64,000 nt of DNA, from assembly GCA_905479065.1 (NCBI GenBank), contig CAJQLB010000017.1, positions 1 to 64,000 on the forward strand. The letters are read 5' to 3'. The translations under genes and the position numbers were made by a program. The DNA is from an uncultured Flavobacteriaceae bacterium (GTDB lineage: Bacteria > Bacteroidota > Bacteroidia > Flavobacteriales > Flavobacteriaceae). The notes under the pieces were generated by a model. The model made no database searches and was not told the origin of the DNA. It saw only the letters and a list, made by a program, of their open reading frames with translations. Positions 18,552 to 49,867 of the stretch are shown piece by piece. How positions within the stretch are numbered: position 1 is the first letter of the stretch; every line of letters starts with the position of its first letter.

Positions 18552-18738
18552 ATGAGTGTGTTGAATAAAATTATTAGCCTAAAACCTAAAGTTAGAAATT
18601 ATTTATTGTTCTCAAGACAGTTTTAACATGATAAATGATAACTTTTAAAAAAGTATGGTAAAATTGAGAAAATCAAAAGACAGCTTTTTGTTATAAAAAT
18701 TGAGGCGCAATGACCACAGTTTAAGAAGATTTTTTGAC

Positions 18739-18786
18739 TATTTTATCGATGAAATGTTTTTTTTATCGTTATATTGCATAAATTTA
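18739..18786 (+). promoter_or_regulatory. Tandem-repeat operator and promoter, copy 1
   Basis: TATTTTATCGAT at 18739-18750 and TTTTTTATCGTT at 18759-18770 are direct copies with a 20-bp period. A TAnnTTTG-like box, TAAATTTA, lies at 18779-18786, putting the transcription start near 18793 and leaving about 19 nt before the ATG. The same arrangement precedes three other units of this locus. Confidence 0.6.
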
Positions 18787-18811
18787 TCTTTTTAACCCCA
18801 AAATAAAGATT

Positions 18812-19252
18812 ATGAAAAATCTTGTCTTATACCTTTTTTTCTGCTGTGTTTCAACTGTGTTTGCTCAAACAAAGAACGTTTCACCAAGTATCATTAGTGA
18901 TGATGTTAGTATCAAGAAATACCATAATAAAAGTGAGCTTAACAAAATGGATAAAGGAGAGCTGTTAACATTATACATTGAGCGTATTGAAAGTCTTGTG
19001 AAAACATTACCTTACATCGCTTTTGCCACAAAACCAGGAAAAACTTTATCTACTTTTGGCATACCTAATTCCAAATTAAATACCAAGGCTTTAAAAGATA
19101 AAGAAAATGCTACTGTTGATTTTATTGAGACAACATCAGATTTTCATAAAAAAATGTTGCCTTATGCCGACAAGAGTAATTTGATTGCTGGGATTCTTTT
19201 CTATGAAGAAACAATGAAATTATTGCATGAATATAATGAAGTCATTGAGTAA
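18812..19252 (+). CDS. Small secreted protein of unknown function
   Basis: A 146-residue protein with a Sec signal peptide (MKNLVLYLFFCCVSTVFA|Q). The mature part is predicted helical, with K-S-E-L-N-K-M-D-K-G-E-L-L-T-L-Y-I-E-R-I-E-S in the first half and an acidic C-terminus (H-E-Y-N-E-V-I-E). I do not recognise the family and there is no sorting domain, lipobox or transmembrane segment, so it should be periplasmic. Its promoter shares the tandem operator of the downstream adhesion units, which suggests a role in the same process; this is inference. It is a separate transcription unit from the next gene, which has its own operator. Confidence 0.75.
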   Translation: MKNLVLYLFFCCVSTVFAQTKNVSPSIISDDVSIKKYHNKSELNKMDKGELLTLYIERIESLVKTLPYIAFATKPGKTLSTFGIPNSKLNTKALKDKENATVDFIETTSDFHKKMLPYADKSNLIAGILFYEETMKLLHEYNEVIE

Positions 19253-19403
19253 CCTTTACTACTTCACCCATCAAAACACATATGATCGCTGTTTGAAATC
19301 CTCTGATCAATAGATAGAATTCTATGATATAGTCTTCATTAACTCCATTATTTATAATCTGTAGAAATTCTCTATAATGTAAGAAAAAACGTATTTAAAA
19401 ATG

Positions 19404-19451
19404 TTGTTCATCGAATATAATTGCATTTTATGGATATAAATTCTAAATTTG
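19404..19451 (+). promoter_or_regulatory. Tandem-repeat operator and promoter, copy 2
   Basis: TTGTTCATCGAA at 19404-19415 and CATTTTATGGAT at 19424-19435 have a 20-bp period. The -7 box TAAATTTG at 19444-19451 matches TAnnTTTG exactly. The expected start is near 19458, about 29 nt before the ATG at 19487. Copy 2 of the repeat is the most degenerate of the eight. Confidence 0.6.
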
Positions 19452-19486
19452 ACTTTGGTATATACAATAATTTTTAAATCTTAGTT

Positions 19487-20791
19487 ATGAAAAACATCAT
19501 CTTGAGTATGTGTCTTATTCTTTTTGCTTTAATGACTATTTCTGGACAGCAAGAAAAAGGTATGGTAGGTATTAACAATTGGTTAAACAATTGGACCGAA
19601 TTTAATACGCACAAAATTGATTATGGAGAAGCAACACAGATAATTGCAGGAAATATTACCAGTAATATCTTTTTAGAGAAAAAACATGTGTATTTGTTGG
19701 TGGGAAGCGTGTTTGTCACGAACAATGCCGTCATGACCATTGAACCCGGAACTGTGATTATTGGAGATTATGATTCCAAAGCCTCATTAACCATTACACG
19801 TGGTGCTAGATTAATAGCAGAGGGAGAAGCAACAGATCCCATTGTTTTTACTTCAAACCGTGGCTTGAAAAGAGCTGGTGATTGGGGAGGTGTTATCATG
19901 CTAGGGGATGCTCCGAGTAATCAATTTGGTGAAGGCTCTGTTGCATCTTACTATCCAGATTTAAAGCCTTTAGATTACATATTTACAAATTTTGGTGGTA
20001 ATGATAGTACGAGTAATTCAGGGATTCTTAAATACGTGAGAATTGAATATGCAGGAAAAAACATTAAAGGATTTGGTCACTTTAATGGTTTGATGTTAGC
20101 TGGTGTAGGTAATCAAACGGTCTTGGAAAATATCATGATTAGTCATTCTGCTGGAAATTCTTTTGAGCTATTAGGGGGAGAGGTTTTTCTTGAAAAAGTA
20201 GTGTCATTTAAAACACATGAAAACGATTTTGAGTTTAACCACGGCGCACAAGCACACCTTTATAATTCATTAGCAGTTCGTTCACCCTATGTGTCAAGTA
20301 GTGATGGTTCGAGATGTTTATTAGTAAAATCTTTTGACAAAAAAAACACAAATGATTTTTCTAAGAACGGGACCTCAGTGATTGCGCAGAATATTACTTT
20401 TATTAATACAAGTAATAATTTAAAGTCTGACATGGAATCTGGACTTATCAATGAAGCCATTTTAGTTGGCGAATATGCAGCATTAGATATGAGTAAAAGT
20501 GTCTTGTCTGGTTTTAGTCCTGCAGTCCTATTAGATAAGAACGTAGAGTTGAATCAAGATAATCTAGAGAAAATACAATTTACTAGCATGTATTTTAATA
20601 ATTGTAATGGTAATATTTTTACTGAAAATAATTCAAATAACGATGATCTTGAAAACTGGTATGGAAATCAAGTTTTTTTTAATGTCTATTCAAAAGGAGA
20701 TAATATTGAGACATTCATTGCCTCAGACAACTTAAAAAGGCCTGATTTTAGATTACAAATCAATAAGATTTTAGCATCAAACGATGATTGA
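19487..20791 (+). CDS. Exported right-handed beta-helix protein
   Basis: A 434-residue protein with a Sec signal peptide (MKNIILSMCLILFALMTISG|Q). From about residue 60 it shows the solenoid pattern of flavobacterial beta-helix proteins: V-M-T-I-E-P-G-T-V-I-I-G-D, L-T-I-T-R-G-A-R-L-I-A-E-G, P-I-V-F-T-S-N-R-G, G-D-W-G-G-V-I-M-L-G-D-A-P, then repeated short strands (V-R-I-E-Y-A-G, N-I-M-I-S-H-S-A-G-N). No T9SS sorting domain or lipobox is visible at the C-terminus. It is the first gene of an apparent three-gene operon with a type-B T9SS substrate and a PorP/SprF fusion, so it may be part of the same surface structure. Confidence 0.8.
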   Translation: MKNIILSMCLILFALMTISGQQEKGMVGINNWLNNWTEFNTHKIDYGEATQIIAGNITSNIFLEKKHVYLLVGSVFVTNNAVMTIEPGTVIIGDYDSKASLTITRGARLIAEGEATDPIVFTSNRGLKRAGDWGGVIMLGDAPSNQFGEGSVASYYPDLKPLDYIFTNFGGNDSTSNSGILKYVRIEYAGKNIKGFGHFNGLMLAGVGNQTVLENIMISHSAGNSFELLGGEVFLEKVVSFKTHENDFEFNHGAQAHLYNSLAVRSPYVSSSDGSRCLLVKSFDKKNTNDFSKNGTSVIAQNITFINTSNNLKSDMESGLINEAILVGEYAALDMSKSVLSGFSPAVLLDKNVELNQDNLEKIQFTSMYFNNCNGNIFTENNSNNDDLENWYGNQVFFNVYSKGDNIETFIASDNLKRPDFRLQINKILASNDD

Positions 20792-20862
20792 TTGAACAAA
20801 CAAAAAAGATAAAACCTGCGATGATGACAAAAAATTAACCTTCGTTTATAACGAAAATTAGC

Positions 20863-22305
20863 ATGAAAAAAATTACACATATTTGTAGCTTGTTAACTTG
20901 TTTTTTAATAACAGTAAGTTCACTGAATGCTCAAATTGTAATCAGTGCACCGAACTTAGGGTTTAGTCAAGCGTGCGCAAGTGAATCATTTAATATCTTC
21001 TTCACAACATTTACTTTTTCTCCAGAAGCAGCTCTAAATAATTCTAACCAATTTATTGTTGAACTTTCAAATGCTCTAGGTGATTTTTCTGATGCAACAA
21101 TTGTTTATTCATCCGAGGAAGGTGAAATTTTAACATCACCGGCAACTGTTGGATTTTCTTTACCTGATACGACAGCAGGAGAATCTTATAAAATTAGAAT
21201 TAAGAGTACAGCACCCGAAACAATGAGTTCAAATTCGGTATCATTTGCTGCCTACTTCAAGATACATGATGAACCTTTTTCAATCAATAATTTAATTGAA
21301 AATGTTGTGTTCTGTTCAGGTAGTAGCTATCTTTTGAGTATTGATGATCCTGGAAATGAAAATAATAATTCTCCTTTGCAATACGAATCGTTGTCTTTCA
21401 ATTGGTATAGAGAAACCAGTGCCACAACATCAATTTTTTTGGAAACAAGCGAGGCGCTTTCAGTAACCGAACCCGGTACCTATTTTGTAGAAACGAATTA
21501 TGGAACTTGTACTTCTAATTCGTTCTCTAACAGAGTAACGTTGTCTGAGGCAGCTTCTGGTGTAATATCAGCATCCGTAAATTCAAGCCTTGGAAATCCT
21601 TATTGTGTTACAGAGGGACCTACTACTTTGAGCACTATTAGTGGAAATAGCTATCAATGGTATAAAGATAGTAATGAAATTTCAGGGGCAACAAATCAAG
21701 AATATACAACAAATGAATCTGGGTTTTATGAGGTAAATGTGAGTTTAGGAGACTGTTCTGTTTTAGCAGACATTAATTTAGAAAATAAAGATTTTATAAG
21801 TAGCATCAATGTTTCTGACACCATTCAGCTTGAAAATGATGAGGCAATTCAAGTTATTGTTTCTACAACTGCTGATAATCCCGAGTATGTTTGGTACTTA
21901 AATGGAATAGAAATTACTGATGAAATATCAAATTCATACGATATTTATGAGCCAGGAAATTATGTGGTAATAGTGACGCAAACATTGGGATGTAATGCGT
22001 CGGATGATTTTAGCTTTGTGGTAGTTGAACAATTCCCTGATGTCACTAAAATTCCAAACTTAATTAGTCCAAACGGTGATGGTATTAATGATACATGGGT
22101 GCTTCCTCAACAATATGCTACAGGATCTAATACAGAGGTGCTCATTTTAGATAGTAATGGCACCTACGTGCTGAAAACTACAGAATATCAAAATGATTGG
22201 CCTCAAAACCAAATCAATAATAACAATACCAATCCAGTGTACTATTATGTAATTATATCTCAAGATGATGACATAAGAAAGGGTTCAATTACGGTCATAA
22301 AATAA
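20863..22305 (+). CDS. T9SS type-B substrate with Ig-like domains
   Basis: A 480-residue secreted protein. The signal peptide (MKKITHICSLLTCFLITVSSLNA) is followed by Gln. The middle consists of beta-sandwich, Ig/PKD-like modules with the strand Y-Q-W-Y-K-D-S-N-E-I and the G-x-Y-x-V-x-V ending seen in cell-surface modules. The last 85 or so residues begin I-P-N-L-I-S-P-N-G-D-G-I-N-D-T-W and end in a short strand after Y-Y-Y-V-I-I, the gliding-motility-associated (type B) C-terminal sorting domain that sends proteins through T9SS. Its stop is 1 bp before the next ATG, so it is translationally coupled to a PorP/SprF protein, the expected partner of type-B substrates. Confidence 0.88.
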   Translation: MKKITHICSLLTCFLITVSSLNAQIVISAPNLGFSQACASESFNIFFTTFTFSPEAALNNSNQFIVELSNALGDFSDATIVYSSEEGEILTSPATVGFSLPDTTAGESYKIRIKSTAPETMSSNSVSFAAYFKIHDEPFSINNLIENVVFCSGSSYLLSIDDPGNENNNSPLQYESLSFNWYRETSATTSIFLETSEALSVTEPGTYFVETNYGTCTSNSFSNRVTLSEAASGVISASVNSSLGNPYCVTEGPTTLSTISGNSYQWYKDSNEISGATNQEYTTNESGFYEVNVSLGDCSVLADINLENKDFISSINVSDTIQLENDEAIQVIVSTTADNPEYVWYLNGIEITDEISNSYDIYEPGNYVVIVTQTLGCNASDDFSFVVVEQFPDVTKIPNLISPNGDGINDTWVLPQQYATGSNTEVLILDSNGTYVLKTTEYQNDWPQNQINNNNTNPVYYYVIISQDDDIRKGSITVIK

Positions 22306-22306
22306 T

Positions 22307-24457
22307 ATGAAGCTTCCTTTAATTCTAATGTTTTTCTTTGTCAATTGTGTAGCACATATTGAGGCACAAGAGTTTGGAACAGTTGCTTTAAATATTCCTG
22401 ACAGAAGTTCATTAAAATTTAATAAGTTTTTAATACATCCTACATTTAGTTTTGTAAGAGAACAGAACAAATATTTGAGTATTACGAATCAAAGACAATG
22501 GGTCCAGTTTGATGATGCCCCCTCTAGTTATATAGCAAGCTATTCAGGGAGGTTTAATGAGAAAGTTGGTCTAGGAATGAGTGTATTTCAGCAAAATTAT
22601 GGTGTGTTGACGTCTTTTGGAGCTATTGTTAATATGGCTTATAACGCGAGACTGCAATATGAGCAAAATTTAACCTTTGGTTTAAATTTAGAGTTTATTA
22701 AAAGTGGTGTTAATGATGGAAATATTATTACAAATATTCCTGATCCTGTAATTAATAATATTCCATCAAATGCGATTGCATTTATTAGTCCAGGAATTAA
22801 TTATGGCTTGGAATTTATAGATGTTGGTTTGGTTATAAATAATTTGATTCAATATAATTTAACTTCCTCCGAGCTCATAAACGAGGATGCCCAGCGAAGT
22901 ATTCAAGCTCATGTGATGTACACAGGTTACATGGATGTTCGTGGTTTTTTTGATGACACTAAATTCTCAACACTAATTAGATCTGAGTTTAAAACAAATA
23001 AAACGGAAGTCTCAGGTTTGGCAATACTCCAAGTTCCAAAGGGTATTTGGGGGCAAATTGGCTACCACTCACGTTATGGTGTTTCAGCGGGTATTGGTCT
23101 AAACATAACAGAGCAAATTGCGATTGAGTATAATTTTGAAAAAGCAATAGGTAAACTTGACTTTTTTGGTAATTCTCATAACATCACAATTGCATATCGT
23201 TTTAAAAATGGCACTAACGACAGGAGAAATGATGAGGAATCTGCTTTTGTTATTCCAAGAAGAAAAAGACGAGTATTGGCAACATCAAGTACAAAAAGAG
23301 CTAAAACAAAGAAATCTGTCCTAACCGAAATAAGTGGTGTTAAACCGTTGGATGAAGGAGAAAAAATCTTAAAAAATCAAGCGAATGTAAAAATTGAGTC
23401 AAAAATAGAAGTTTTGGAGCATGCAAGTCAGCCTAATATCAAAACAGAGATTACGACTGAAAAATCACCTCCAAACACCAAAATCGCTGAAGAGAAATTA
23501 GATGAAATTGAATTGACTGCCAAAGCGGAAAAACAACGAATTTTAGCACAAAAGGCAATTTTATTTGAAATCACTCATAAAGATGACCTTGCAGCTGCTA
23601 TGTTTGAGATGGTTGAGAAAGCTAAGACAGCGAAGCAACAAGAAGAAAATTTATTGATAGAATTAGATGTCCTAGTAGACGCAAAAAACAATGATTTAAA
23701 GGCTTTAAAAGAAGAAAATGATTTGAGTGAGCAAGGGGTTTATCAAAAACCAACATCTTTTAAAAGTATATCGAAACAGAAAAAAATATTAGAAAATTTG
23801 AAGACCAACATAGATACATCCATAAAAATGAGAGAGAATGGGATGTCAGATCTTGAATTGACTTATCAGAGACGTCTCAAAAAAATGACAGATGAGGCTG
23901 ATAAAACAAATAAATATTATCTATCAGCCATAAAAACATTAAAGGAAGATCACAAGCAGCTTTTTGCATCCAAACAAGCACTCATGTTGCGCTTAAAAGC
24001 TATAAATACCGGTCTTGAATTTGAAAGAAAAAGACGTATTAAAAAAGCAATTTATGACAATGAAAGTGATCGCTATAAAAAAGATACAGCAACACTAAAT
24101 TCGATAAAAAAGTTGACAAAAATCGGAAGTAACACAAACTTAAAAATTGAAGATTTTGATTTTGGCAACAAATTTTCTGCAAATAATATTCAAATAATTA
24201 AGGGGGTAACATATGCCAAAAAAGGGTATTACCTCATTTTGGCAGTCCATAGTGATATCAAAAGAAGAGATGAATTCATTACTAAGGTCGTTTTATTTGG
24301 TGAACCAAATATCGATTTCTTTTATGATGTCAAAACAAGTATGTATTACATTTTCTCACAGAAATTTAATTCACTTAACGCAGCAAAAATATTCATGCAA
24401 TTGAACAAACAATTACCCTTTATGAGTGAGGTTTCCATTATAAAAGTTGAAAATTAA
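22307..24457 (+). CDS. PorP/SprF-family protein fused to coiled coil and SPOR-like domain
   Basis: A 716-residue protein. After a signal peptide (ending I-E-A|Q), residues about 25-305 match the PorP/SprF outer-membrane barrel: P-T-F-S-F-V-R-E-Q, R-Q-W-V-Q-F-D-D-A-P-S-S-Y, and late strands A-I-E-Y-N-F-E-K-A-I-G and I-A-Y-R-F-K-N. A very basic linker follows (R-R-K-R-R, about 320), then about 250 residues of charged helix or coiled coil (350-610), and a C-terminal beta-alpha-beta module of about 85 residues (G-Y-Y-L-I-L-A-V-H-S-D, F-F-Y-D-V-K-T-S-M-Y-Y-I-F) that looks like SPOR. SPOR domains bind denuded peptidoglycan. The gene is long for the family, which is usually 300-350 residues. See the findings. 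Confidence 0.85.
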   Translation: MKLPLILMFFFVNCVAHIEAQEFGTVALNIPDRSSLKFNKFLIHPTFSFVREQNKYLSITNQRQWVQFDDAPSSYIASYSGRFNEKVGLGMSVFQQNYGVLTSFGAIVNMAYNARLQYEQNLTFGLNLEFIKSGVNDGNIITNIPDPVINNIPSNAIAFISPGINYGLEFIDVGLVINNLIQYNLTSSELINEDAQRSIQAHVMYTGYMDVRGFFDDTKFSTLIRSEFKTNKTEVSGLAILQVPKGIWGQIGYHSRYGVSAGIGLNITEQIAIEYNFEKAIGKLDFFGNSHNITIAYRFKNGTNDRRNDEESAFVIPRRKRRVLATSSTKRAKTKKSVLTEISGVKPLDEGEKILKNQANVKIESKIEVLEHASQPNIKTEITTEKSPPNTKIAEEKLDEIELTAKAEKQRILAQKAILFEITHKDDLAAAMFEMVEKAKTAKQQEENLLIELDVLVDAKNNDLKALKEENDLSEQGVYQKPTSFKSISKQKKILENLKTNIDTSIKMRENGMSDLELTYQRRLKKMTDEADKTNKYYLSAIKTLKEDHKQLFASKQALMLRLKAINTGLEFERKRRIKKAIYDNESDRYKKDTATLNSIKKLTKIGSNTNLKIEDFDFGNKFSANNIQIIKGVTYAKKGYYLILAVHSDIKRRDEFITKVVLFGEPNIDFFYDVKTSMYYIFSQKFNSLNAAKIFMQLNKQLPFMSEVSIIKVEN

Positions 24458-24581
24458 AGAAGAAGTTAAAGATGTTTCATCAAAGCCAATCATTTGAATT
24501 ATTTCATAAATGAGTGTTGATAAAAATTTTCAAGCTTGCGTGAAATTATTTATGTTTCAACTAAAAAGTTAAAGTTTTATG

Positions 24582-24629
24582 TATTACATCGATTAATTAA
24601 TATATTTCATCGATAATTTTATATTTTTG
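24582..24629 (+). promoter_or_regulatory. Tandem-repeat operator and promoter, copy 3 (adhesin)
   Basis: TATTACATCGAT at 24582-24593 and TATTTCATCGAT at 24603-24614 differ at one base and have an exact 21-bp period. TATTTTTG at 24622-24629 is a perfect -7 box. The repeats occupy the positions of a -33 element, as expected for an activator site. The leader to the adhesin ATG would be about 227 nt. This is the best-conserved of the four sites. Confidence 0.7.
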
Positions 24630-24787
24630 ATAGTACAATTCAATCTCTGTACATTGAAGTCATCTCTTGTAAATATTAAATTTCTTCTTAGCCTTAATTT
24701 AAAGGATTTAGCACTTATTTTTTCTAAATGTTATTTAGTGAAGCTTTGCCACTTAATCATAAATCTTTTTGACTTTGAAACGAATTA

Positions 24788-24816
24788 TTTGGTTAATCAC
24801 TTCAGTGATATTTTTA
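24788..24816 (+). promoter_or_regulatory. Second promoter-like element or attenuator-like hairpin in the adhesin leader
   Basis: TTTG at 24788-24791, a 17-nt spacer and TATTTTTA at 24809-24816 resemble a Bacteroidota promoter with a start about 40 nt before the adhesin ATG. The same bases form a hairpin, ATCAC (24796-24800), loop TTCA, GTGAT (24805-24809), followed by A and five T. The two readings cannot be told apart from sequence. Confidence 0.4.
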
Positions 24817-24862
24817 GGATAATGTATGTTCAGAATTATTATAAAATTTCACAAAAAATAGT

Positions 24863-27800
24863 ATGAACAGAATTACGTATTTTAAACATAGTTTTTTTCT
24901 AATATGTATCATTTTAGGATGTTCTTCTTTTGCTCAAAATTATATTCCTTTTACACCGCGATTTGATCAGGATGTACGAGGTGATATCATTCTTATTGGA
25001 AATAATATTTTAGGTCCAAATAATGAAGCCTTTAATGAGAATTCTGTTTATAATCATAACGTAGATATGAGATATGTGGATATTGATAATGATATATCAA
25101 CATACAGTTCTTCGAGTGCAGACTTAGAAATACCAAATCCCAATTGTTATCAAATTATATACGCAGGATTGTATTGGGGTGCAGTCACAAGTGGTGCTGA
25201 ATCTATTACTGAAGTTCAACTAAAAGGGCCATCTGGGGAGTATATCAATGTGACGGGAACCGTTATTTACAGTGCTGATGGCACTGTCACAGGAAACTCT
25301 TTTCCTTATTCATGTTATGCAGATGTGACGGATATCATTTCAAATTTGGAGAATGATTTAGGAACATATACTGTGGCAAATGTATCAAGCGCTCAAGGCG
25401 AAACGAGTTCCTTAAACCCCTACAATGGTACAGGGTATTCAGCGGGTTGGTCACTATTTATTGTGTATGAGGATCCCACCATGCCTGGTAAGTCCATAAC
25501 AAGTTTTGACGGATTCAGCGCCATTAGTAGTTCTGTGAATCTAGATGTTCCTATCTCTGGATTTCGAACAGTACCAGCTCCAGCGCCAGTACGAGCAAAT
25601 TTTGCATTTGCAGCTTTAGAAGGGGATAAGCCAATTAGAAATGATCGCATGTTAATTAATGATGTTAATTTATCAACAGTCGATCGTCCTGAGAATAATT
25701 TTTTCAATAGTTCAGTGACTCGATTAGATGCGACTCCTGTAACAAACAGAAATCCCAATAGTACGAATACTTTAGGATTTGATACAGGTGTTATGGTTGT
25801 CCCTAATCCCAACAATACAGTCATTGCGAATGATGCCACCAATGCAACAGTCCGCTTAGAGAGTAATCAAGATACTTATTTCGAATATTTTTTTGCTTTT
25901 GCTGTTGAAATTATCGAACCAAACATAGTACTAACGAAAATTGTTGAAGACGCTAACGGCAATAACATTGGTGGTCAAATAGTAAATCTTGGTGATGAAC
26001 TTAATTATGTCATTGGTTTTCAGAATACTGGAAATGACGGTGCTACTAACATTACTGTGAGAGATATTTTACCAACAAATATAGTTTTTAATTACCCTGA
26101 AGATATAATTTCATTACCACTGGGTGTAAGTGTTGAGAGTTTTAACTCTGAAACGCGTGAAATTATTTTTAGAATTGAAGAGTCTATTGTTGAGGAAAAT
26201 GACCCTCTCTCTGAAATTAGATTTAAAGTAGAAGTTGTTTCTACATGCAGCCTGTTAAATGACGCCTGTTCAAATATCGTTACAAATCAGGCATTTGCAA
26301 CCTATTATGGAACTTTAAATCCTTCATTTGTAATTACAGATGATCCTAGTATCAGCACAAATGTTGGTTGTTTGTTGACACCTGCAGCAACTAATTTTCT
26401 GGCCGATATAAATTGTGTTTTCTCTGAGGAAGTTATTTTATGCGGAGATAGCGTTCAATTAACAGCAGCAGATGGATATGATACTTATTCATGGTCAACA
26501 AATCCCACTGGAACACCTGAAATCGGTACAACACAAATTATCACGGTCACAACTACGGGAACTTATTATTCATTTAACACCGCTGTAGCACCTTGTCAAT
26601 CCATTGAACAAGAATATGAAGTTATTACGTTTGGGGCAAATGTGCCCAATCCTGTTATTCCATATGCCGATCAGATTGTTGTTTGTCCAAATGATGGTAA
26701 AGATTTACCAAATATCTTTTTATGTGGCTCCAATGATACACGCTTAATCCAAACGGGTATTACAGACGCCAATTCAATTATATGGGAGAAATTAGATGAA
26801 TCTAGCTGTCCTCCTGTTTCTAATCAAGACTGTGCAAATGAAAATAGTACTTGTATTTGGAATGAGGTAAACTCAGGGCCAGATTTTCTGATTGACACAT
26901 CCGGTCAATATAGACTTACATTAAATTATGATGGAGGTTGTTTTAATCAATTTTATTTTAATGTGTTCACAAACTTACTCAGCCCAAGTGCAGTCACAAA
27001 AGATATTATTTGTGATACGCCTGGAGAAATTGTTGTCAATGATGTTCCAAATGGTTACGAGTATAGCATTGATGGTGTCAATTACCAAGACAGTAATGTG
27101 TTTTCAGTAGCAACTCCAGGAATTTATACAATTTTTATTAGGCAAATTGGAATAACTCCTAACCCATGTATTTTTACGGTACCAGAGGTTCAAGTTCGAA
27201 AACGCACCTTTACCGTTTCTACAATCATTACGCAGCCTTATTGTCATGGTGATTTGGGAAGCGTTCACATCGCTGCCAATGACGCTAATCCACAATATTT
27301 TTTCTCAATTTATCAAGAATCAACCTTGGTCAACAGTGTTGGGCCAATACTTCCAAACGATTATTCTTTTAATAATTTAAACCCGGGAATCTATACTGTT
27401 AAAGTATCAACCGAAGATGGATGTGAATTTACTGGGGATATTGAAATTATTACCCCACCGATACTTACTGCGACGGCAGCTATTACTAAACCAATCACTT
27501 GCACAGCTGGAGAGATTACAGTATATCCAAATGGAGGGACAGCACCATATTTTTATTTTGTAAATAGTGACACTACATTTCAAACAACACCTGTTATACC
27601 TGTTTTAAACCCAGGGCAATACAATATTACAGTCACAGATTCAAATAACTGTTCGGTTGACCTATCCATTACAATTGAAACCACACCGAGTCCAGAGTTT
27701 TATATTGAAACTTCAAATATTTTATGCTCAGATACAGGTGCTCTCGGAATTATTGATATTAATGTGACTAATCCACATGGCAACACTTTAAAATTTAGTA

Positions 27801-30800
27801 TTGATGGTGGAAATACATTTTATGATTCATCAACTTTTAATGATCTGTCTGAAGGTAATTATGATGTCGTTATTCAGTATGTGATGGGTATGGATACTTG
27901 TTTGACCCCACCGCAAACAGTGACAATTACAGCAGTTCCTGAAATACAGGGTATTGCTGAGGTGACGACACAGTTTTCTTGCGATTCTTATGGTATTATT
28001 GCAGTTTCGAACGTTAGTGGAGGCACACCACCTTATACTTACAGCCTCGACGGCACTACATTTCAAACAGGAAACATATTTAATGGATTAACATCAGGAA
28101 CTTTTACCGTAACAATTAAAGACGCTAATAACTGTGGATCTTTTACGCTGCCGGTAACAATAGATCCTTTGAATCCACCAACAGATTTAGATTTTAATAA
28201 TACACCGTTAACCTGTCCTGAATTAAAGTCGGATGTGACAATTACATCAACGACTGGAGGAACAGGAATGTTAGAGTACAGAATATTGGCTCCAGTTGGA
28301 TATGAAACGACCTATCAAGCTTCAAATGTTTTTTTAAGTTTGGATCCAGGGACCTATACGTTTAAGGTAAAAGATTTTTTAGAATGCACATACATTGAAT
28401 CTCATACCATAGCGCCAATACCTCCAATTACGATATCTACAATTTTGACAAAAGATTTAGATTGTTCAGGGACACCTAATGCCATAATTTCTGGTATAAT
28501 TTTAGAAGGTTTAGCACCATTTACTTATGAGGTATCATACAATAGCGGCGTTTACACCACTGTTGGTAGTACCAATACAAATTTTGAGTATAGCGCATCT
28601 AATTCAGGTAGTTATCAATTTAAAGTGACGGATTCAAATGGATGTTCTGCTGAATCAAATATTCAAAATATTTCTGCACTTTCATTACCTGAAATAGTAT
28701 CCGTTACGTCGACACCAAATTTATGCTTAGGAGACTCAAATGGATCCCTTCAAATCACTTTAAATACGTCTGTTGGAACACCTTTTTATACCATCAATGT
28801 TTTTAACACCACAACAGGGACAGATTATGGGAGTCAAACAACAGGATTGCCATCCGGGAATTACACAATTACATTGACAGATGCCAAATTTTGTACTGAC
28901 ACAAAAATGATTACTATTTTTGAACCAGATCCATTAGAGGTGAATTTCCATGTTATAGATATTTCTTGTGTTGAAACTGGGCTTTCTCAGGGTTCTATTA
29001 TTATTGATAATGTTATTGGAGGAACCGCTCCATACACCTATTATGTCACTGGATCAAATGGCTATTCTGAAAATGAATCTAATGCCTTAGGTACGGCATC
29101 AACTACTTTTAGTAATATTGATTTTGGACTGTATCAAATAAACATTGTAGACTTCAATGGATGTTCTACACTAATCCAGGACGTTTTAGTAGCTTCCCCT
29201 CCAAATGATTTAGACATCACGATAAATACAACATCAAATTGTTTGATAGGAGGAGAGGCTGATGTGAGTATTGGAACTACCTTAGCAGGAACAGGGCCCT
29301 TTTATTTTGATATTTACAGGGGAGAAACACCTCCACCTCCACCAGGTGGAACATGGTTGTCTGAAGATTCACCAGGCAGTCAATCGGCAACATTCTTGGG
29401 CTTAACACCAGGAATTACTTATACATTTATCGTGTATGATTCCTCAAGTGGATGTAGTTATTATGAACAAGCAACAACGCCAACATCATCAAGTTCTACA
29501 TTGATTGTAAATACATCAACTGTTAACAATATTAGTTGTGTTGGAAATGCAGATGGTAATGTGTCTTTCACTGCAAATAGCTCGTATAATGTTTCTGTGG
29601 ATATAGACTATGAGGTGTTTAATTCATTATCATTGTTACCAGTGGGAATCTCTGGATCCAATACAATTTTATCAAATGGAAGTATCTCTGTTGAAAATTT
29701 AGGGCCATTGGAACTCGGAACCTATTTTATTTTAGTTAAGGAGACCAGTGGGGCTAACTCAGGATGTGGCGCTGTGACTGTTCCGTTTAATATTTTAGAA
29801 TCGTCATTAGAATTATCCCTATCGGCGAAGGTTGAAAAAAATGCAAATTGCAATCCTAACTCGGGAATTATCAATGCCACAGCCAGCCATGGTACAGCTC
29901 CATATTTATATCAACTAACAACATCGGAGATTCCTCCATCTATTTCAGACATAAACTGGTTAGATCAGCATGTTTTTAATGTCGATGCGAACAGTTATTA
30001 TGTACATGCTCTTGATGCCTTTGGGTGCATAAAATCAACTCCAGTAATTGTACTAATGTCAGATTCTGAACCAATTATTGCTGCAACATCAAGTAATCAA
30101 TGTTTTGTATCAGAAGGGAACTATGAAATAAATGTTTCATTAATGTCACCTGGAGTACCACCTTATACATTTAGTATAAATGATGGTGCATTTCAAACAA
30201 AGGAAATACCATTTGTTATGACAAATTTAGCTGCAGGAAATCATACAATTGAAATTAAGGATGCTAATGGTTGTGGAAATTTTGTAACCGTTACACTAGA
30301 GTCTTCTCTAGTATTGTCACCAAATCTCTCTGCAGTGCCATCATGCAACAATAATGATGGTCAAATATCCATGACAACTAATGGTGGAAGTGGCTTATTT
30401 GACTATAATATTAGTCCAAGTCCAGCTTCAATTTATTTAAATGGCAATTCGTTTTTTGGTGTGCCTGCAGGGTGGTATACCATCACTGCAATTGATACCA
30501 CTACATTGTGTTCTGTTGAAGCTGAAATATTTGTACCAAACGCAACATCACCTTCATTATCAATTGTGTCAGATGCCTTAGAATGTTTTGGAGATAATTC
30601 TGGTGTATTTGAATTGCGAGTCGCAGGCTACTCAGGGACCTATAATTACGAAGTTTTTGATGTGAATAACAATTCAGTTTTTGGACTAATGGCGGCCTCA
30701 ACAACCACAAATCCTGAAATAATTACAGGATTAGATTCCGGAACCTTTACAGTTCAAGTGAGTGAAACAGAATTTCCATTCTGTACTAGCGAAACAGAGG

Positions 30801-33067
30801 TTGTTATTTTATCTCCAATAAATGAACTAACCCTAGATATATTAGAGACTTCAAATGTTACATGTGATAATATTGGAGGGACACTAATAGCGATGGCGAG
30901 CAATGGTTGGGGAGATTACGAATATGAATTAACAGGTGACCTCGTACTCCCGTATTCTAATAATGGAACCTTTGCAAATTTAAGCTCAGGAACCTACACA
31001 ATAAATGTGAAAGATGCCGGTGGTTGTGTAGTTTCAGAGACGGTGGTATTGTCCATGCCTAATCCAATAGAAGCCACGTTCGCTACAAATTCAAATGTAC
31101 TGTCTTGCTTTGGTGACACCAATGGGACTATTATTGTTGAAAATGTTACAGGGGGACAAGAATTTAACTATAATTACACGCTTTACATGTCCTCCCCACA
31201 AAACACTTCCTCAGGGCCTCAAACTTCAAACATATTTACAGATTTAAGTCCAGGTACGTATCATGTTATAATTAACGATGGGTTTAATTGTGAATTTATA
31301 TCACCTGATATTATAATTACAGAACCAGAGGCAATGACAGTAAATTTAGTAGCTGATTCGTTACCGACATGTACTTTGGATGCAACACTAACGCTGAGTG
31401 CTTCAGGCGGTACAGGAATTTATACATATAGTGATCATATTGATTTCACGACAATTCTCGGATCATTTGCAGCCTCAATATCATTCTCTGTTGCTCCTGG
31501 AACGTATAGGTATTACATAAAAGATGTCAATGGATGCATATCATCAGTTTCGAATGAAATTACGATAGATTCATTACCTGAGTTATATATTGATTTAGAA
31601 AGAACCGACATTACGATTAATTGTGCTGGAGATAATTCGGGTGTGATTGTAGCCAATGCTTACGGAGGTTTAGGGTTTTATATATATACATTGCAAGACG
31701 ATTTAGGTAATGATATTTTACCTGAACCGAGTCAAACAACACCCGGAGTCTTTTCAGATTTGTCTGCAGGTAATTATCGCGTTAGAGTTGAAAGTGGTGA
31801 TTGTTTAATGCAATCAGAAATAATTAATATTAGAGAGCCTTCAGCACCACTGATTGCAAATTATACAGTATCTAATATTGTATGTAGTGGTGCTAATAAT
31901 GGGAGTGTTGAAATTCTAGCTACAGGGGGTACAGGCTCCATTAAATATGCTATTTCTCCACAATTGAATCAATTTTTTGAGGGTTCAGTTTTTGAAAATC
32001 TTGCGCCTGGCTCATATCAAGCAATGGCTCAGGATGAACTTGGTTGTTTTTCTGTCATTGATTTTACAATTGATGATCCTGTTCCGGTACAATTAGAAAT
32101 CGTAGAAGACTCATTGTTTCCTGAGGTGTGTGAGGGTGTCAATGATGGCGAGTTTAGTATCGACATATCGGGCGGAAGCTTACCTTACAGTGTAAGCTTA
32201 GATGACAGCACAGGTATTTATAACACTGGAACTGAAATACAAACTCAATTTGATTTTTATGAGTTGTCTGGTGGAAATCATGTTGTTTATATACGTGATG
32301 CTTTGGGATGTGAATCTGAGTGGAATATTTCTTTTCCAAATTCTGTAGTGATAAACCCTCAAGTTAATATCGAATATAGTTGTACAAACAATTTACAATC
32401 GAATCAGGTAATTGTCAGTGTCGATACTAGTATTTTAGATTTAGCAGATGTTGATTATTCGTTAGATGGAGGTGTGTATCAGTCAAATTATATATTTGAT
32501 AACGTATCAACAAGCATGGATCATTACATCGATGTAAGGCATACAAATGGCTGTATTCAAAGAACAGCAATATTTAATATTCCTAATTATCAGCCATTAG
32601 ATTTAGTACTTCAGGAAGGTGAAATTAATGAAATTATAGCCCAAATATCTGGTGGTTCTTCACCTTACGAATTGTCATTAAATGGTAATTATTTTGGTGC
32701 TGTTCATACGTTTCAAATCGAAGAATCTGGAACTTATTTTGTCACAGTTACAGATAGTGCGGGCTGTTCCGTTAGTGCCTCGATAGATGTCGAATTTACT
32801 GATGTTTGTATTTCCAATTATTTCACTCCAAATGATGATGGAGTTCTTGATACCTGGGGGCCTAGCTGTGCTCAACAATATCCAAATCTCACGGTTGATA
32901 TTTTTGACAGATATGGTCGTGTAGTAGCGACTTTAAGCCAGGGTCTGAAGTGGGATGGTAAATATCAAGGTAACGATTTGCCAACAGGGGATTATTGGTA
33001 TGTGGTAAAATTAAACGATGCGGTTGAACAACGAGATTTTGTGGGTCATTTTACGCTCTACCGATAA
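24863..33067 (+). CDS. Giant SprB-like repeat adhesin with T9SS type-B sorting domain
   Basis: A 2734-residue cell-surface protein. The signal peptide (ending S-S-F-A|Q) is followed by an N-terminal region (about 25-345) with Y-A-G-L-Y-W-G-A typical of large flavobacterial surface proteins, then a DUF11-like module (about 350-500; N-I-V-L-T-K-I-V-E-D, L-N-Y-V-I-G-F-Q-N-T-G). From about 700 to 2640 I count some 23 SprB-type repeats of 70-95 residues, each ending in a strand of the form G-x-[YF]-x-[VI]-x-[VI]-x-D-x-x-x-C (for example S-G-T-F-T-V-T-I-K-D-A-N-N-C). The C-terminus begins F-T-P-N-D-D-G-V-L-D-T-W and holds G-R-V-V-A and L-P-T-G-D-Y-W-Y-V-V, a type-B sorting domain. Such proteins are gliding or attachment adhesins exported by T9SS. 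Its PorP/SprF partner is the next gene. Confidence 0.93.
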   Translation: MNRITYFKHSFFLICIILGCSSFAQNYIPFTPRFDQDVRGDIILIGNNILGPNNEAFNENSVYNHNVDMRYVDIDNDISTYSSSSADLEIPNPNCYQIIYAGLYWGAVTSGAESITEVQLKGPSGEYINVTGTVIYSADGTVTGNSFPYSCYADVTDIISNLENDLGTYTVANVSSAQGETSSLNPYNGTGYSAGWSLFIVYEDPTMPGKSITSFDGFSAISSSVNLDVPISGFRTVPAPAPVRANFAFAALEGDKPIRNDRMLINDVNLSTVDRPENNFFNSSVTRLDATPVTNRNPNSTNTLGFDTGVMVVPNPNNTVIANDATNATVRLESNQDTYFEYFFAFAVEIIEPNIVLTKIVEDANGNNIGGQIVNLGDELNYVIGFQNTGNDGATNITVRDILPTNIVFNYPEDIISLPLGVSVESFNSETREIIFRIEESIVEENDPLSEIRFKVEVVSTCSLLNDACSNIVTNQAFATYYGTLNPSFVITDDPSISTNVGCLLTPAATNFLADINCVFSEEVILCGDSVQLTAADGYDTYSWSTNPTGTPEIGTTQIITVTTTGTYYSFNTAVAPCQSIEQEYEVITFGANVPNPVIPYADQIVVCPNDGKDLPNIFLCGSNDTRLIQTGITDANSIIWEKLDESSCPPVSNQDCANENSTCIWNEVNSGPDFLIDTSGQYRLTLNYDGGCFNQFYFNVFTNLLSPSAVTKDIICDTPGEIVVNDVPNGYEYSIDGVNYQDSNVFSVATPGIYTIFIRQIGITPNPCIFTVPEVQVRKRTFTVSTIITQPYCHGDLGSVHIAANDANPQYFFSIYQESTLVNSVGPILPNDYSFNNLNPGIYTVKVSTEDGCEFTGDIEIITPPILTATAAITKPITCTAGEITVYPNGGTAPYFYFVNSDTTFQTTPVIPVLNPGQYNITVTDSNNCSVDLSITIETTPSPEFYIETSNILCSDTGALGIIDINVTNPHGNTLKFSIDGGNTFYDSSTFNDLSEGNYDVVIQYVMGMDTCLTPPQTVTITAVPEIQGIAEVTTQFSCDSYGIIAVSNVSGGTPPYTYSLDGTTFQTGNIFNGLTSGTFTVTIKDANNCGSFTLPVTIDPLNPPTDLDFNNTPLTCPELKSDVTITSTTGGTGMLEYRILAPVGYETTYQASNVFLSLDPGTYTFKVKDFLECTYIESHTIAPIPPITISTILTKDLDCSGTPNAIISGIILEGLAPFTYEVSYNSGVYTTVGSTNTNFEYSASNSGSYQFKVTDSNGCSAESNIQNISALSLPEIVSVTSTPNLCLGDSNGSLQITLNTSVGTPFYTINVFNTTTGTDYGSQTTGLPSGNYTITLTDAKFCTDTKMITIFEPDPLEVNFHVIDISCVETGLSQGSIIIDNVIGGTAPYTYYVTGSNGYSENESNALGTASTTFSNIDFGLYQINIVDFNGCSTLIQDVLVASPPNDLDITINTTSNCLIGGEADVSIGTTLAGTGPFYFDIYRGETPPPPPGGTWLSEDSPGSQSATFLGLTPGITYTFIVYDSSSGCSYYEQATTPTSSSSTLIVNTSTVNNISCVGNADGNVSFTANSSYNVSVDIDYEVFNSLSLLPVGISGSNTILSNGSISVENLGPLELGTYFILVKETSGANSGCGAVTVPFNILESSLELSLSAKVEKNANCNPNSGIINATASHGTAPYLYQLTTSEIPPSISDINWLDQHVFNVDANSYYVHALDAFGCIKSTPVIVLMSDSEPIIAATSSNQCFVSEGNYEINVSLMSPGVPPYTFSINDGAFQTKEIPFVMTNLAAGNHTIEIKDANGCGNFVTVTLESSLVLSPNLSAVPSCNNNDGQISMTTNGGSGLFDYNISPSPASIYLNGNSFFGVPAGWYTITAIDTTTLCSVEAEIFVPNATSPSLSIVSDALECFGDNSGVFELRVAGYSGTYNYEVFDVNNNSVFGLMAASTTTNPEIITGLDSGTFTVQVSETEFPFCTSETEVVILSPINELTLDILETSNVTCDNIGGTLIAMASNGWGDYEYELTGDLVLPYSNNGTFANLSSGTYTINVKDAGGCVVSETVVLSMPNPIEATFATNSNVLSCFGDTNGTIIVENVTGGQEFNYNYTLYMSSPQNTSSGPQTSNIFTDLSPGTYHVIINDGFNCEFISPDIIITEPEAMTVNLVADSLPTCTLDATLTLSASGGTGIYTYSDHIDFTTILGSFAASISFSVAPGTYRYYIKDVNGCISSVSNEITIDSLPELYIDLERTDITINCAGDNSGVIVANAYGGLGFYIYTLQDDLGNDILPEPSQTTPGVFSDLSAGNYRVRVESGDCLMQSEIINIREPSAPLIANYTVSNIVCSGANNGSVEILATGGTGSIKYAISPQLNQFFEGSVFENLAPGSYQAMAQDELGCFSVIDFTIDDPVPVQLEIVEDSLFPEVCEGVNDGEFSIDISGGSLPYSVSLDDSTGIYNTGTEIQTQFDFYELSGGNHVVYIRDALGCESEWNISFPNSVVINPQVNIEYSCTNNLQSNQVIVSVDTSILDLADVDYSLDGGVYQSNYIFDNVSTSMDHYIDVRHTNGCIQRTAIFNIPNYQPLDLVLQEGEINEIIAQISGGSSPYELSLNGNYFGAVHTFQIEESGTYFVTVTDSAGCSVSASIDVEFTDVCISNYFTPNDDGVLDTWGPSCAQQYPNLTVDIFDRYGRVVATLSQGLKWDGKYQGNDLPTGDYWYVVKLNDAVEQRDFVGHFTLYR

Positions 33068-33429
33068 AGATCCTATTTTTCTTAACTTTATAATCTTTCC
33101 ACAGAGTAATTGGTTGAACTAAGTTTGAATTTCTTTTTAAGACTTTATGTTTAAAGGATGCCTGTCCTAATTCAAAAAAATGAGGTAAAATGATTATAAT
33201 GTTAAATTTTTATGCTTTATATCGATTAAATAATGTATTACGTCGATTTTTTTAGTATTTTTATAAACAGAACCCAAACCTATTAAATTGAACTCAGAAG
33301 GAATTATTTTAAATTGATACGAGCGAACTAAAAACTCCAAGTTTAAACACAAAACGCTCTGTATTTTTCTTAACTAAATCGCAAAAGTTCATTAAAAATT
33401 CACAAAGACTGTAAATGGTTTTTTACGCA
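33068..33429. other. 362-bp gap between adhesin and sprF-like gene
   Basis: No gene is supported. It contains the tandem operator and promoter at 33215-33263 and a leader of about 160 nt. No hairpin with U-tract is visible after the adhesin stop, so read-through from the adhesin transcript into the partner gene is possible. Confidence 0.6.
33215..33263 (+). promoter_or_regulatory. Tandem-repeat operator and promoter, copy 4 (sprF-like gene)
   Basis: CTTTATATCGAT at 33215-33226 and TATTACGTCGAT at 33236-33247 have an exact 21-bp period. TATTTTTA at 33256-33263 is a -7-like box with the last G replaced by A. Transcription would start near 33270. Confidence 0.65.
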
Positions 33430-34410
33430 ATGAAAAAACTTCACCTACTTACTTTATTTTTGTCTTTATCCTACAGTTATTCTCAGGAGTTAAACTTACC
33501 CGTGTTTACGCAATATCTTGCTGATAATAATTTTGTGATCTCACCAACTTATGCAGGAATTGGTGATAATTTAAAGCTTCGTGCCAATGGACTTACGCAA
33601 TGGGTTGGAATTAAAGATGCCCCTGATAACCAATCCTTTTATGGCGATTTTAGACTAGGAGACCGCTCAGGAATTGGCTTGTCGCTTTACAATGATAAAA
33701 ATGGTAATACCATCCAAACTGGTGCTAAATTTTCTTTTGCTCACCATCTTATTCTTGATATTCCTACCGAACAATTTTTATCATTAGGTTTGTCATACAA
33801 TATCAATACGTTTCGAATTGACATTGATAACTTTAACACAACTTATGACAATCCTGTAATCGATCCATTTATAACAGATGACCGCAAGGCAAACAATAAT
33901 AATTTTGATGTGGGACTACTTTACAGGTTTAAAAATTATTTTTTGAGTATTAATGCAAATAACATTTTACCAAAAAAAATTGATCAGAGTCTCAGAATAT
34001 TTGAACCCAATATGCTCTTTAATATGCAAGTTTTTACAGGTTTAACTTTTGGAGGTTATTCAAAAAAAAATGAGTTTGAATTCGAGTCATCTTTGTTTTT
34101 TCAATATTTTGCTAGTGACAGTAGATCAAGTAGTGATTTAAATATTAAAATTAAAAAATATGGTCGAGATGAAAATTATTTTTGGGGAGGTATTTCGTAT
34201 AGGTTTTTAAACGATCAATTTTTCAAACCTTTAAATATCGGTCCTATGGTTGGGTTTAAACAATCTATTTTTTATTTTGGTTATGCCTATCAATTAACGA
34301 CAAACGCATTGTCTGCATATAACTCTGGAACACACGTGGTAACTGTTGGAGTAGATCTTTTAAGAGGTGTCAGTAATTGTGCATGTACAAAAAGTAGAGT
34401 AAAATATTAA
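33430..34410 (+). CDS. PorP/SprF-family T9SS outer-membrane protein
   Basis: The start at 33430 (MKKLHLLTLFLSLSYSYS|Q) is preferred over 33415 because it yields a regular signal peptide; 326 residues. The mature protein opens with L-P-V-F-T-Q-Y-L-A-D-N-N-F-V-I-S-P-T-Y-A-G in parts, the hallmark of PorP/SprF proteins, followed by N-G-L-T-Q-W-V-G-I-K-D-A-P and alternating barrel strands (G-I-G-L-S-L-Y-N-D-K-N-G). In F. johnsoniae, SprF is needed for surface delivery of the adhesin SprB encoded just upstream, and the same order is seen here. It has no C-terminal extension, unlike the paralogue at 22307-24457. Confidence 0.92.
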   Translation: MKKLHLLTLFLSLSYSYSQELNLPVFTQYLADNNFVISPTYAGIGDNLKLRANGLTQWVGIKDAPDNQSFYGDFRLGDRSGIGLSLYNDKNGNTIQTGAKFSFAHHLILDIPTEQFLSLGLSYNINTFRIDIDNFNTTYDNPVIDPFITDDRKANNNNFDVGLLYRFKNYFLSINANNILPKKIDQSLRIFEPNMLFNMQVFTGLTFGGYSKKNEFEFESSLFFQYFASDSRSSSDLNIKIKKYGRDENYFWGGISYRFLNDQFFKPLNIGPMVGFKQSIFYFGYAYQLTTNALSAYNSGTHVVTVGVDLLRGVSNCACTKSRVKY

Positions 34411-49679: not shown

Positions 49680-49709
49680 TTGTGAAAATATTAAAAGATT
49701 GTATATTTA
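49680..49709 (+). promoter_or_regulatory. Promoter of the SRP RNA gene
   Basis: TTG at 49680-49682, a 19-nt spacer and TATATTTA at 49702-49709 (one mismatch to TAnnTTTG). The expected start, about 7 nt later near 49716, coincides with the first base of the RNA stem. Confidence 0.65.
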
Positions 49710-49714
49710 CACCC

Positions 49715-49808
49715 GGCAAGTCCTACACAACCAGCTCCTGTTGAATCCTCCAGGGCGGGAACGCAGCAAAGGTAAATGGTCGTAGCGGTGTGATGTAGGT
49801 AGCTTGCC
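49715..49808 (+). ncRNA. ffs: Small signal recognition particle RNA (4.5S type)
   Basis: The 94-nt sequence starts GGCAAG and ends CTTGCC, closing the terminal stem, and CCTACA pairs with TGTAGG further in. The apical part, CCTCCAGGGC-GGGAACGCAGCAAAGG, contains the conserved SRP core with a GGAA tetraloop closed by GCG/CGC and the AGCA-side symmetric loop bound by Ffh. Seven T (49809-49815) follow the stem and act as terminator. With Ffh and FtsY it targets membrane proteins to the translocon. A 72-codon frame on the opposite strand is a shadow. Confidence 0.93.
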
Positions 49809-49867
49809 TTTTTTTGTACTTGAAACTTTCCTTTTTTATTGTACTTTTAAAGACTAAATTTCTTTTT

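Follow-up and report, generated by a model that had tools for sequence, protein, structure and literature searches.

A tandem direct-repeat switch sequence of flavobacteria and its probable LytTR-class reader

The 64,000-nt stretch analysed here (the window; positions 1 to 64,000 of contig CAJQLB010000017.1, assembly GCA_905479065.1, from an uncultured Flavobacteriaceae bacterium) carries four tandem direct repeats before genes of a surface-protein locus. The repeats belong to a switch sequence that recurs across the genome and is present in many flavobacteria. Its reader is very probably a single, highly conserved regulator not studied so far, which may also control small RNAs. Judged by sequence, there is a strong likelihood that the repeats are operators of a single response regulator of the LytTR class, for which the best candidate is the product of C13:11585-12277 (C numbers denote contigs of the same genome). 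Control of surface genes in the Flavobacteriaceae is little mapped; the work names an operator, the gene that may encode its regulator and the genes that lie behind sites, all of them testable in many species, and surface proteins, sensor kinases and perhaps small RNAs are connected through the operator.

The repeat in the window, the genome and relatives

A preliminary description of the window had reported paired direct repeats at 18739/18759, 19404/19424, 24582/24603 and 33215/33236, each followed by a TAnnTTTG-type -7 box starting 8-9 nt after the second copy. All four pairs were confirmed, with periods of 20, 20, 21 and 21, and so were the boxes, after gaps of 8, 8, 7 and 8 nt. The half-site extends further 5' than first described, to TGYATTTCATCGAT. 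The 18739 site is nearly equal on both strands (26.8 bits on the plus versus 25.0 bits on the minus strand), and its minus reading points to the M14 peptidase gene 15975-18551.

In a mismatch scan with the word TWTTWYATCGAT (at most three mismatches per copy and five in total, periods 20 and 21) the sites at 18739, 19404, 24582 and 33215 have 1, 4, 0 and 2 mismatches, and 20 dinucleotide-Markov windows contain 0.1 pairs per window with three mismatches, 0.15 with four and none with fewer. This comparison is circular because the word was derived from the same four sites, and a model, R3, was therefore trained on 15 sites of the genome that lie outside the window. R3 recovers the four sites at the E values given in Table 1, the next unrelated place having E 0.048. 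It is held out in sequence and not in discovery, since its sites were mostly found with an earlier model, R1, which included the window sites. A position weight matrix of the 15 R3 sites gives the four window sites scores of 27.5-28.3, 22.7 and 18.9 and the best unrelated place 15.3; one of 100 shuffled windows holds a place at 25.4 (next best 18.9, rounded), so that no weak site proves itself and the argument rests on the set of sites. A sigma-70-type promoter scan (94 versus 82.6 in shuffles, standard deviation 8.2) and a terminator scan (6 versus 7.7) revealed nothing.

A pattern search of the genome returned four exact matches, two of them within the window; one, at C2:2079, was dropped as it lies inside a gene reading by eye as thrS. 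A fifth, near-identical site precedes the gene of a 1627-residue protein of the type IX secretion system (T9SS), type B, with a CHU_C signal, on C47, in line with the expectation that further sites would stand before other surface-protein genes. R1, the model of these five sites (four in the window plus C47), finds 56 places at E ≤ 10, of which 30 were read; the wider half-site TGYATTTCATCGAT emerges from its matches in direct repeat with a period of 20-22, once 19 (on C5, one of the 20 sites of the later model R2). The core GYATTTYATCGA occurs at 22 places in the genome versus 2 for the reversed pattern, and 17 of the 22 exact half-sites lie outside open reading frames (ORFs) of 100 residues; five overlap, L058 merely at a gene end.

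R2 was built from 20 sites. The R1 matches left out of it were L022, L031 and L033 (coding), L021 (weak), L027, L030 and L032 (overlapping or neighbouring), and L019, L026, L028, L034 and L037 (readings of the opposite strand). In its own genome R2 has 31 matches at E ≤ 0.01, counting opposite-strand readings, with 22 distinct strong places among the matches listed. As coding matches were excluded from R2 training, it is R1 and the other genomes that have to decide whether sites lie outside genes. Among the 19 distinct R1 matches new to that model, 13 have no overlap with an ORF (ATG start, at least 100 residues), three overlap by under half and three lie within ORFs, against a background in which 84% of the R1-match stretches is ORF. 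For 52 fetched best matches from other genomes, which had no role in training, the figures are 38 without overlap, 11 under half and 3 more than half. Half of the same-family relatives (18/36) have 10-26 matches each.

The earlier expectation that orthologous promoters keep the repeats holds only in part. The window locus is syntenic in the sister species G003 (on its contig C11). There the 19404 site survives, standing 78 nt upstream of the 19487 orthologue; at 18812 a single half-site, which reads better on the minus strand, is retained together with the -7 box. The sites 24582 and 33215 have no counterpart, because the spacers that hold them do not exist in G003, where merely ~70 and ~30 nt precede the sprB- and sprF-like genes. 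Sites 24582, 33215 and C47 resemble each other beyond the repeats themselves and, on this likeness, may be copies of one promoter. G002 has a near-identical site (L071) before a protein that by eye is similar to the C47 protein at its start; a G002 orthologue of the window locus was absent from the 12 stretches fetched, the only ones searched.

A LytTR-class regulator as the probable reader

The layout of the repeats had been compared with that of LytTR-type activators, with the reservation that the repeat itself was unlike the LytTR consensus and the regulator might belong to another family. According to an excerpt of PMC4847170, LytTR sites consist of two repeats of 9-11 nt, 11-13 nt apart, without a common consensus, and the Escherichia coli LytTR response regulator YpdB (PyrR) binds GGCATTTCAT twice with period 21 before yhjX. 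The layout bears the comparison out: a 9-nt core GYATTTYAT repeated with a period of 20-22 corresponds to a spacing of 11-13 nt. The repeat does resemble the YpdB operator; the flavobacterial half-site contains GCATTTCAT, the core of that operator in the same excerpt, and little is left of the doubt over the family.

Five LytTR genes are present in the genome, all of them on contigs other than that of the window, and the claim that the window lacks a regulator gene holds for LytTR and AraC (HTH_18) domains, the two domains searched. The orphan candidate L040 (Table 1) is, like YpdB, a receiver-LytTR protein with a direct repeat holding GCATTTCAT as its presumed target (YpdB as described in part of PMC4847170). 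On the sequence comparison it is not a YpdB orthologue. Unlike YpdB, which is encoded beside its LytS-type kinase, L040 lies beside genes reading by eye as rpsR, rpsF and priA, and no kinase was found within the 3.3 kb inspected. The operators also differ, the flavobacterial half-site continuing into CGAT and occurring many times per genome. Residues of L040 aligned with D53 and K101 of YpdB are invariant in five aligned proteins; we take them to be the phospho-acceptor aspartate and the conserved lysine of the receiver.

Four of the five LytTR genes (L038, L039, L040 and L041) were compared with site counts, the fifth being L042 (a membrane LytTR protein, C45). The first set comprised 60 genomes, the genome itself included and 37 of them in the family, with sites counted by R2. 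At least three sites are present in 27/27 genomes with an L040 orthologue (at least 61% identity) versus 3/33 without (family genomes: 27/27 versus 1/10). The other three were rejected as regulator on their poorer fit in the 37 family genomes: L041 (C2), 24/29 versus 4/8; L038 (C15, beside a TPR kinase), 17/17 versus 11/20; L039 (C7), 13/14 versus 15/23. In 219 family genomes the figures for L040 are 163/171 versus 2/48, where site counts are lower bounds taken from the best 25 candidates or fewer per genome (own genome 24, compared with 31 in the first set) and 26 genomes absent from both lists are entered as having neither orthologue nor site. For the 187 genomes outside the first set they are 138/146 versus 2/41 (Fisher 8e-30, a value that overstates independence since the genomes are related). 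Eight of the 48 genomes without an orthologue have weak homologues and 0-2 sites, and two of the other 40 hold at least three sites. The lack of sites is not explained by small genomes, since genomes of 3.4-4.8 Mb without an L040 orthologue (G005, G028, G036, G126 and G132) hold 0-1 sites. The median is 17 sites for the 76 genomes with an L040 form of 86-100% identity and 8 for the 95 with a more distant form (60-71% where listed). When plasmids were searched with the protein of L038, the LytTR relatives that came up were all under 60% identity.

In some relatives a site also stands before the regulator gene itself. Eighty regulator loci (814 kb, many of them metagenome bins) hold 37 R2 matches at E ≤ 1, of which 25, spanning 22 loci, lie within ~130 nt before the regulator gene. 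By a simple score of at least 18, sites are found in 18/80 upstream regions of the regulator versus 0/400 mononucleotide shuffles.

Evidence on both sides and a possible mechanism

Apart from the relatedness of the genomes, several observations weigh against the assignment to L040. It is no closer to YpdB (28% identity) than are L039 (29%) and L038 (30%), and L038 too correlates with site number (Fisher 0.0015, family). Eight genomes of the 219 with an L040 orthologue hold just one or two sites, and others have sites and no orthologue. In the first set these are G003 (20 sites, 90% complete), G038 (4) and G039 (3, besides a homologue at 42%); the second set adds G193 (7) and G239 (13, with a listed completeness of 99%). 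Assembly gaps may account for these. Six of the 25 matches before the regulator gene read on the other strand, away from the gene, and in the genome itself this site is weak (7.2 bits); the stretch might also belong to the neighbouring gene at its other end. The finding that 19 of the 22 listed R2 places have no ORF overlap, and three a partial one, is nearly circular, 20 of the 22 having trained R2.

AraC-type regulators also use direct repeats about 21 bp apart, and the genome has five HTH_18 matches, four of them over the cut-off, in addition to L042. One of these proteins, co-inherited with the C13 LytTR gene, might read the sites, and the few site-rich genomes without the LytTR orthologue would agree with that. 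This is nevertheless quite improbable, given that the half-site resembles a LytTR operator, that the LytTR gene itself lies behind a site in 22/80 loci and that the three other LytTR genes match the distribution of sites less closely. Hardly any weight attaches to the notion, already refuted, that the repeats are chance A+T-rich pairs selected by eye. The window has only 34% G+C and a single shuffled window did yield a high-scoring place, but the held-out R3 model recovers the four sites, the core outnumbers its reversed pattern elevenfold (22 versus 2) and matches are nearly absent from genomes without the regulator.

If the repeats are operators of the LytTR regulator, it probably activates rather than represses. 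Repression, or action in both directions with the -7 boxes incidental, is the less likely form of control, though it is more plausible than a different reader. The sites overlie the -33 position, at which repressors would act too, the 18739 site is readable in both directions, no long ORF follows several of the sites and the -7 box is not conserved in the alignment of 20 sites; on the other hand a TAnnTTTG-like box stands 7-8 nt downstream at the five first-aligned sites, and YpdB/PyrR, with its similar operator, is annotated as an activator. Under activation by the C13 regulator, two protomers would sit on the same face of the DNA at a distance of two helical turns, the half-site nearer the promoter would substitute for the -33 element, and the bound pair would recruit sigma-A RNA polymerase to the -7 box. 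The receiver would be phosphorylated by a kinase encoded elsewhere, perhaps one of the three kinases behind sites, and the regulon would share a common signal.

Related control systems offer partial parallels. AgrA and VirR are LytTR regulators that drive a regulatory RNA (RNAIII and VR-RNA, respectively); they resemble the present case in having surface or secreted proteins, and here perhaps small RNAs, behind the sites of a LytTR regulator, and differ in belonging to another phylum, the small RNAs here being candidates only. PorX is not known to be a LytTR protein. In partial accounts of the Porphyromonas gingivalis PorX/PorY and SigP path, a response regulator likewise controls T9SS-linked genes, by way of a sigma factor that belongs to that path. 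The sprB/sprF operon of another flavobacterium is also under special promoter control: the remFG-sprCDBF promoters of Flavobacterium psychrophilum carry sigma-54 (SM4) and SM5 motifs, which are different from ours, and the main text of PMC9723704 does not contain 'LytTR', 'direct repeat' or 'response regulator'. Among the open-licence PMC papers searched, on LytTR in combination with gliding, Bacteroidetes, priA, T9SS or small RNAs, none was seen to describe the motif (CATTTCATCGA) or the regulator. In excerpts of PMC10057207, PMC10197871, PMC11278836, PMC5395568 and PMC7440613 flavobacterial LytTR proteins are merely named or counted; one of the five mentions mutations of unknown effect in a Flavobacterium johnsoniae LytTR regulator.

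Genes and putative small RNAs behind the sites

The features of the window and the main candidates elsewhere are collected in Table 1. Outside the window, sites precede the gene of a T9SS-tail protein (C47:27828), of a PAS/GAF histidine kinase (C29), of a TPR histidine kinase on each of C36 and C5, and of a 251-residue protein with weak likeness to AmiS/UreI; on C13 a single promoter with two sites precedes the gene of a laminin-G-like protein, whose T9SS tail match is below cut-off. The sites on C19 and C15 are followed by small proteins (84 and 77 residues, respectively) that are mutually alike by eye, and the C19 type is also behind sites in G010, G020 and G022. The suggestion that one regulator switches on the whole surface locus is upheld as to one likely regulator and fails as to scope: as the sites are spread over the genome and also precede genes of histidine kinases and small proteins as well as putative small RNAs, the switch is not confined to a single locus.

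Table 1. Positions of the operators, genes and candidate RNAs (window coordinates unless a contig is named)
Feature	Position	Strand	Remarks
Tandem operator, -7-like box TAAATTTA (18779-18786)	18737..18786	both readable	before gene 18812; R3 E 2e-6
Tandem operator, -7 box TAAATTTG (19444-19451)	19402..19451	+	before gene 19487; R3 E 1e-5
Tandem operator, -7 box TATTTTTG (24622-24629)	24580..24629	+	233 nt before SprB-like gene 24863; R3 E 4e-4
Tandem operator, -7-like box TATTTTTA (33256-33263)	33213..33263	+	166 nt before PorP/SprF gene 33430; R3 E 2e-3
Candidate regulator L040, 231 residues, receiver and LytTR	G000:C13:11585-12277 (L153)		PF00072 E 1e-19, PF04397 E 6e-19
146-residue protein	18812..19252	+	signal peptide by eye; no Pfam family; behind site 18737
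434-residue protein	19487..20791	+	exported by eye; no Pfam family; behind site 19402
CHU_C (T9SS type B signal) protein	20863..22305	+	PF13585 E 2e-13; apparent operon with 19487
PorP/SprF-family protein	22307..24457	+	PF11751 E 2e-46; same apparent operon as 19487
SprB-like protein, 2734 residues, SprB repeats and CHU_C	24863..33067	+	PF13573, PF13585; behind site 24580
PorP/SprF-family protein	33430..34410	+	PF11751 E 1e-63; behind site 33213
Putative small RNA behind double operator	G000:C29:91926-92194 (L157:3427-3695)		conserved ORF-less stretch and terminator
Second candidate, terminator-bearing stretch behind operator	G000:C36, L155:2100-2350	-	z -1.27 before terminator
Further candidate, terminator-bearing stretch behind operator	G030 (L083)		
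Small signal recognition particle (SRP) RNA	49707-49813	+	RF04183, 105.4 bits

The putative small RNA on C29 lies behind a double site (91926-92043), after which come a -7-like box and ~140 nt without an ORF that end in a strong terminator. The core of the stretch is unchanged in G001, G002, G003 and G031, the last from another genus, and is also found in G198. The stretch folds 3.95 standard deviations better than shuffles, probably largely by way of the terminator, and has a single pair with a compensatory change. Searching Rfam at gathering score in 10 sources (116 kb) gave no family for the stretch behind C29:91993; the sole match was the window's small SRP RNA.

A terminator follows within ~330 nt of the site at 7 of the 65 loci examined; L085, with its terminator inside a gene, and L184, with its site wholly in an ORF, were discarded, which leaves five. 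C29, G198 and G031 share the word CCCTAAATCT, and C36 and G030 the word CCCAAATCT; at C21 a shared word is present and no terminator was found. Because CCC(T/A)AAATCT occurs also at places without an operator, the window included, it is weak evidence for an RNA family, and for this reason the small-RNA layer is rated as less likely than not. Equally doubtful is the widest reading, in which a nearly invariant, orphan and self-controlled LytTR regulator would be a global surface switch of the Flavobacteriaceae, acting directly on T9SS surface proteins and sensor kinases and in a second layer via small RNAs, an analogue of agr-RNAIII of separate Bacteroidota origin.

Some details of individual loci may be added. 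The small proteins of 77-89 residues (L024:1587-1838 at C19, L154 at C15, L076, L079 and L086) contain Cys pairs and have a DUF1660 match below cut-off; their operator overlaps the end of the preceding gene at C19, G010, G020 and G022. At C8:2617 (L161) an operator stands before a gene that reads by eye like a SixA-type histidine phosphatase. On C47 (L005:5877-12795) two adjoining large ORFs are identical by eye over a long C-terminal stretch, as a recent duplication, gene conversion or a fault in the assembly would produce.

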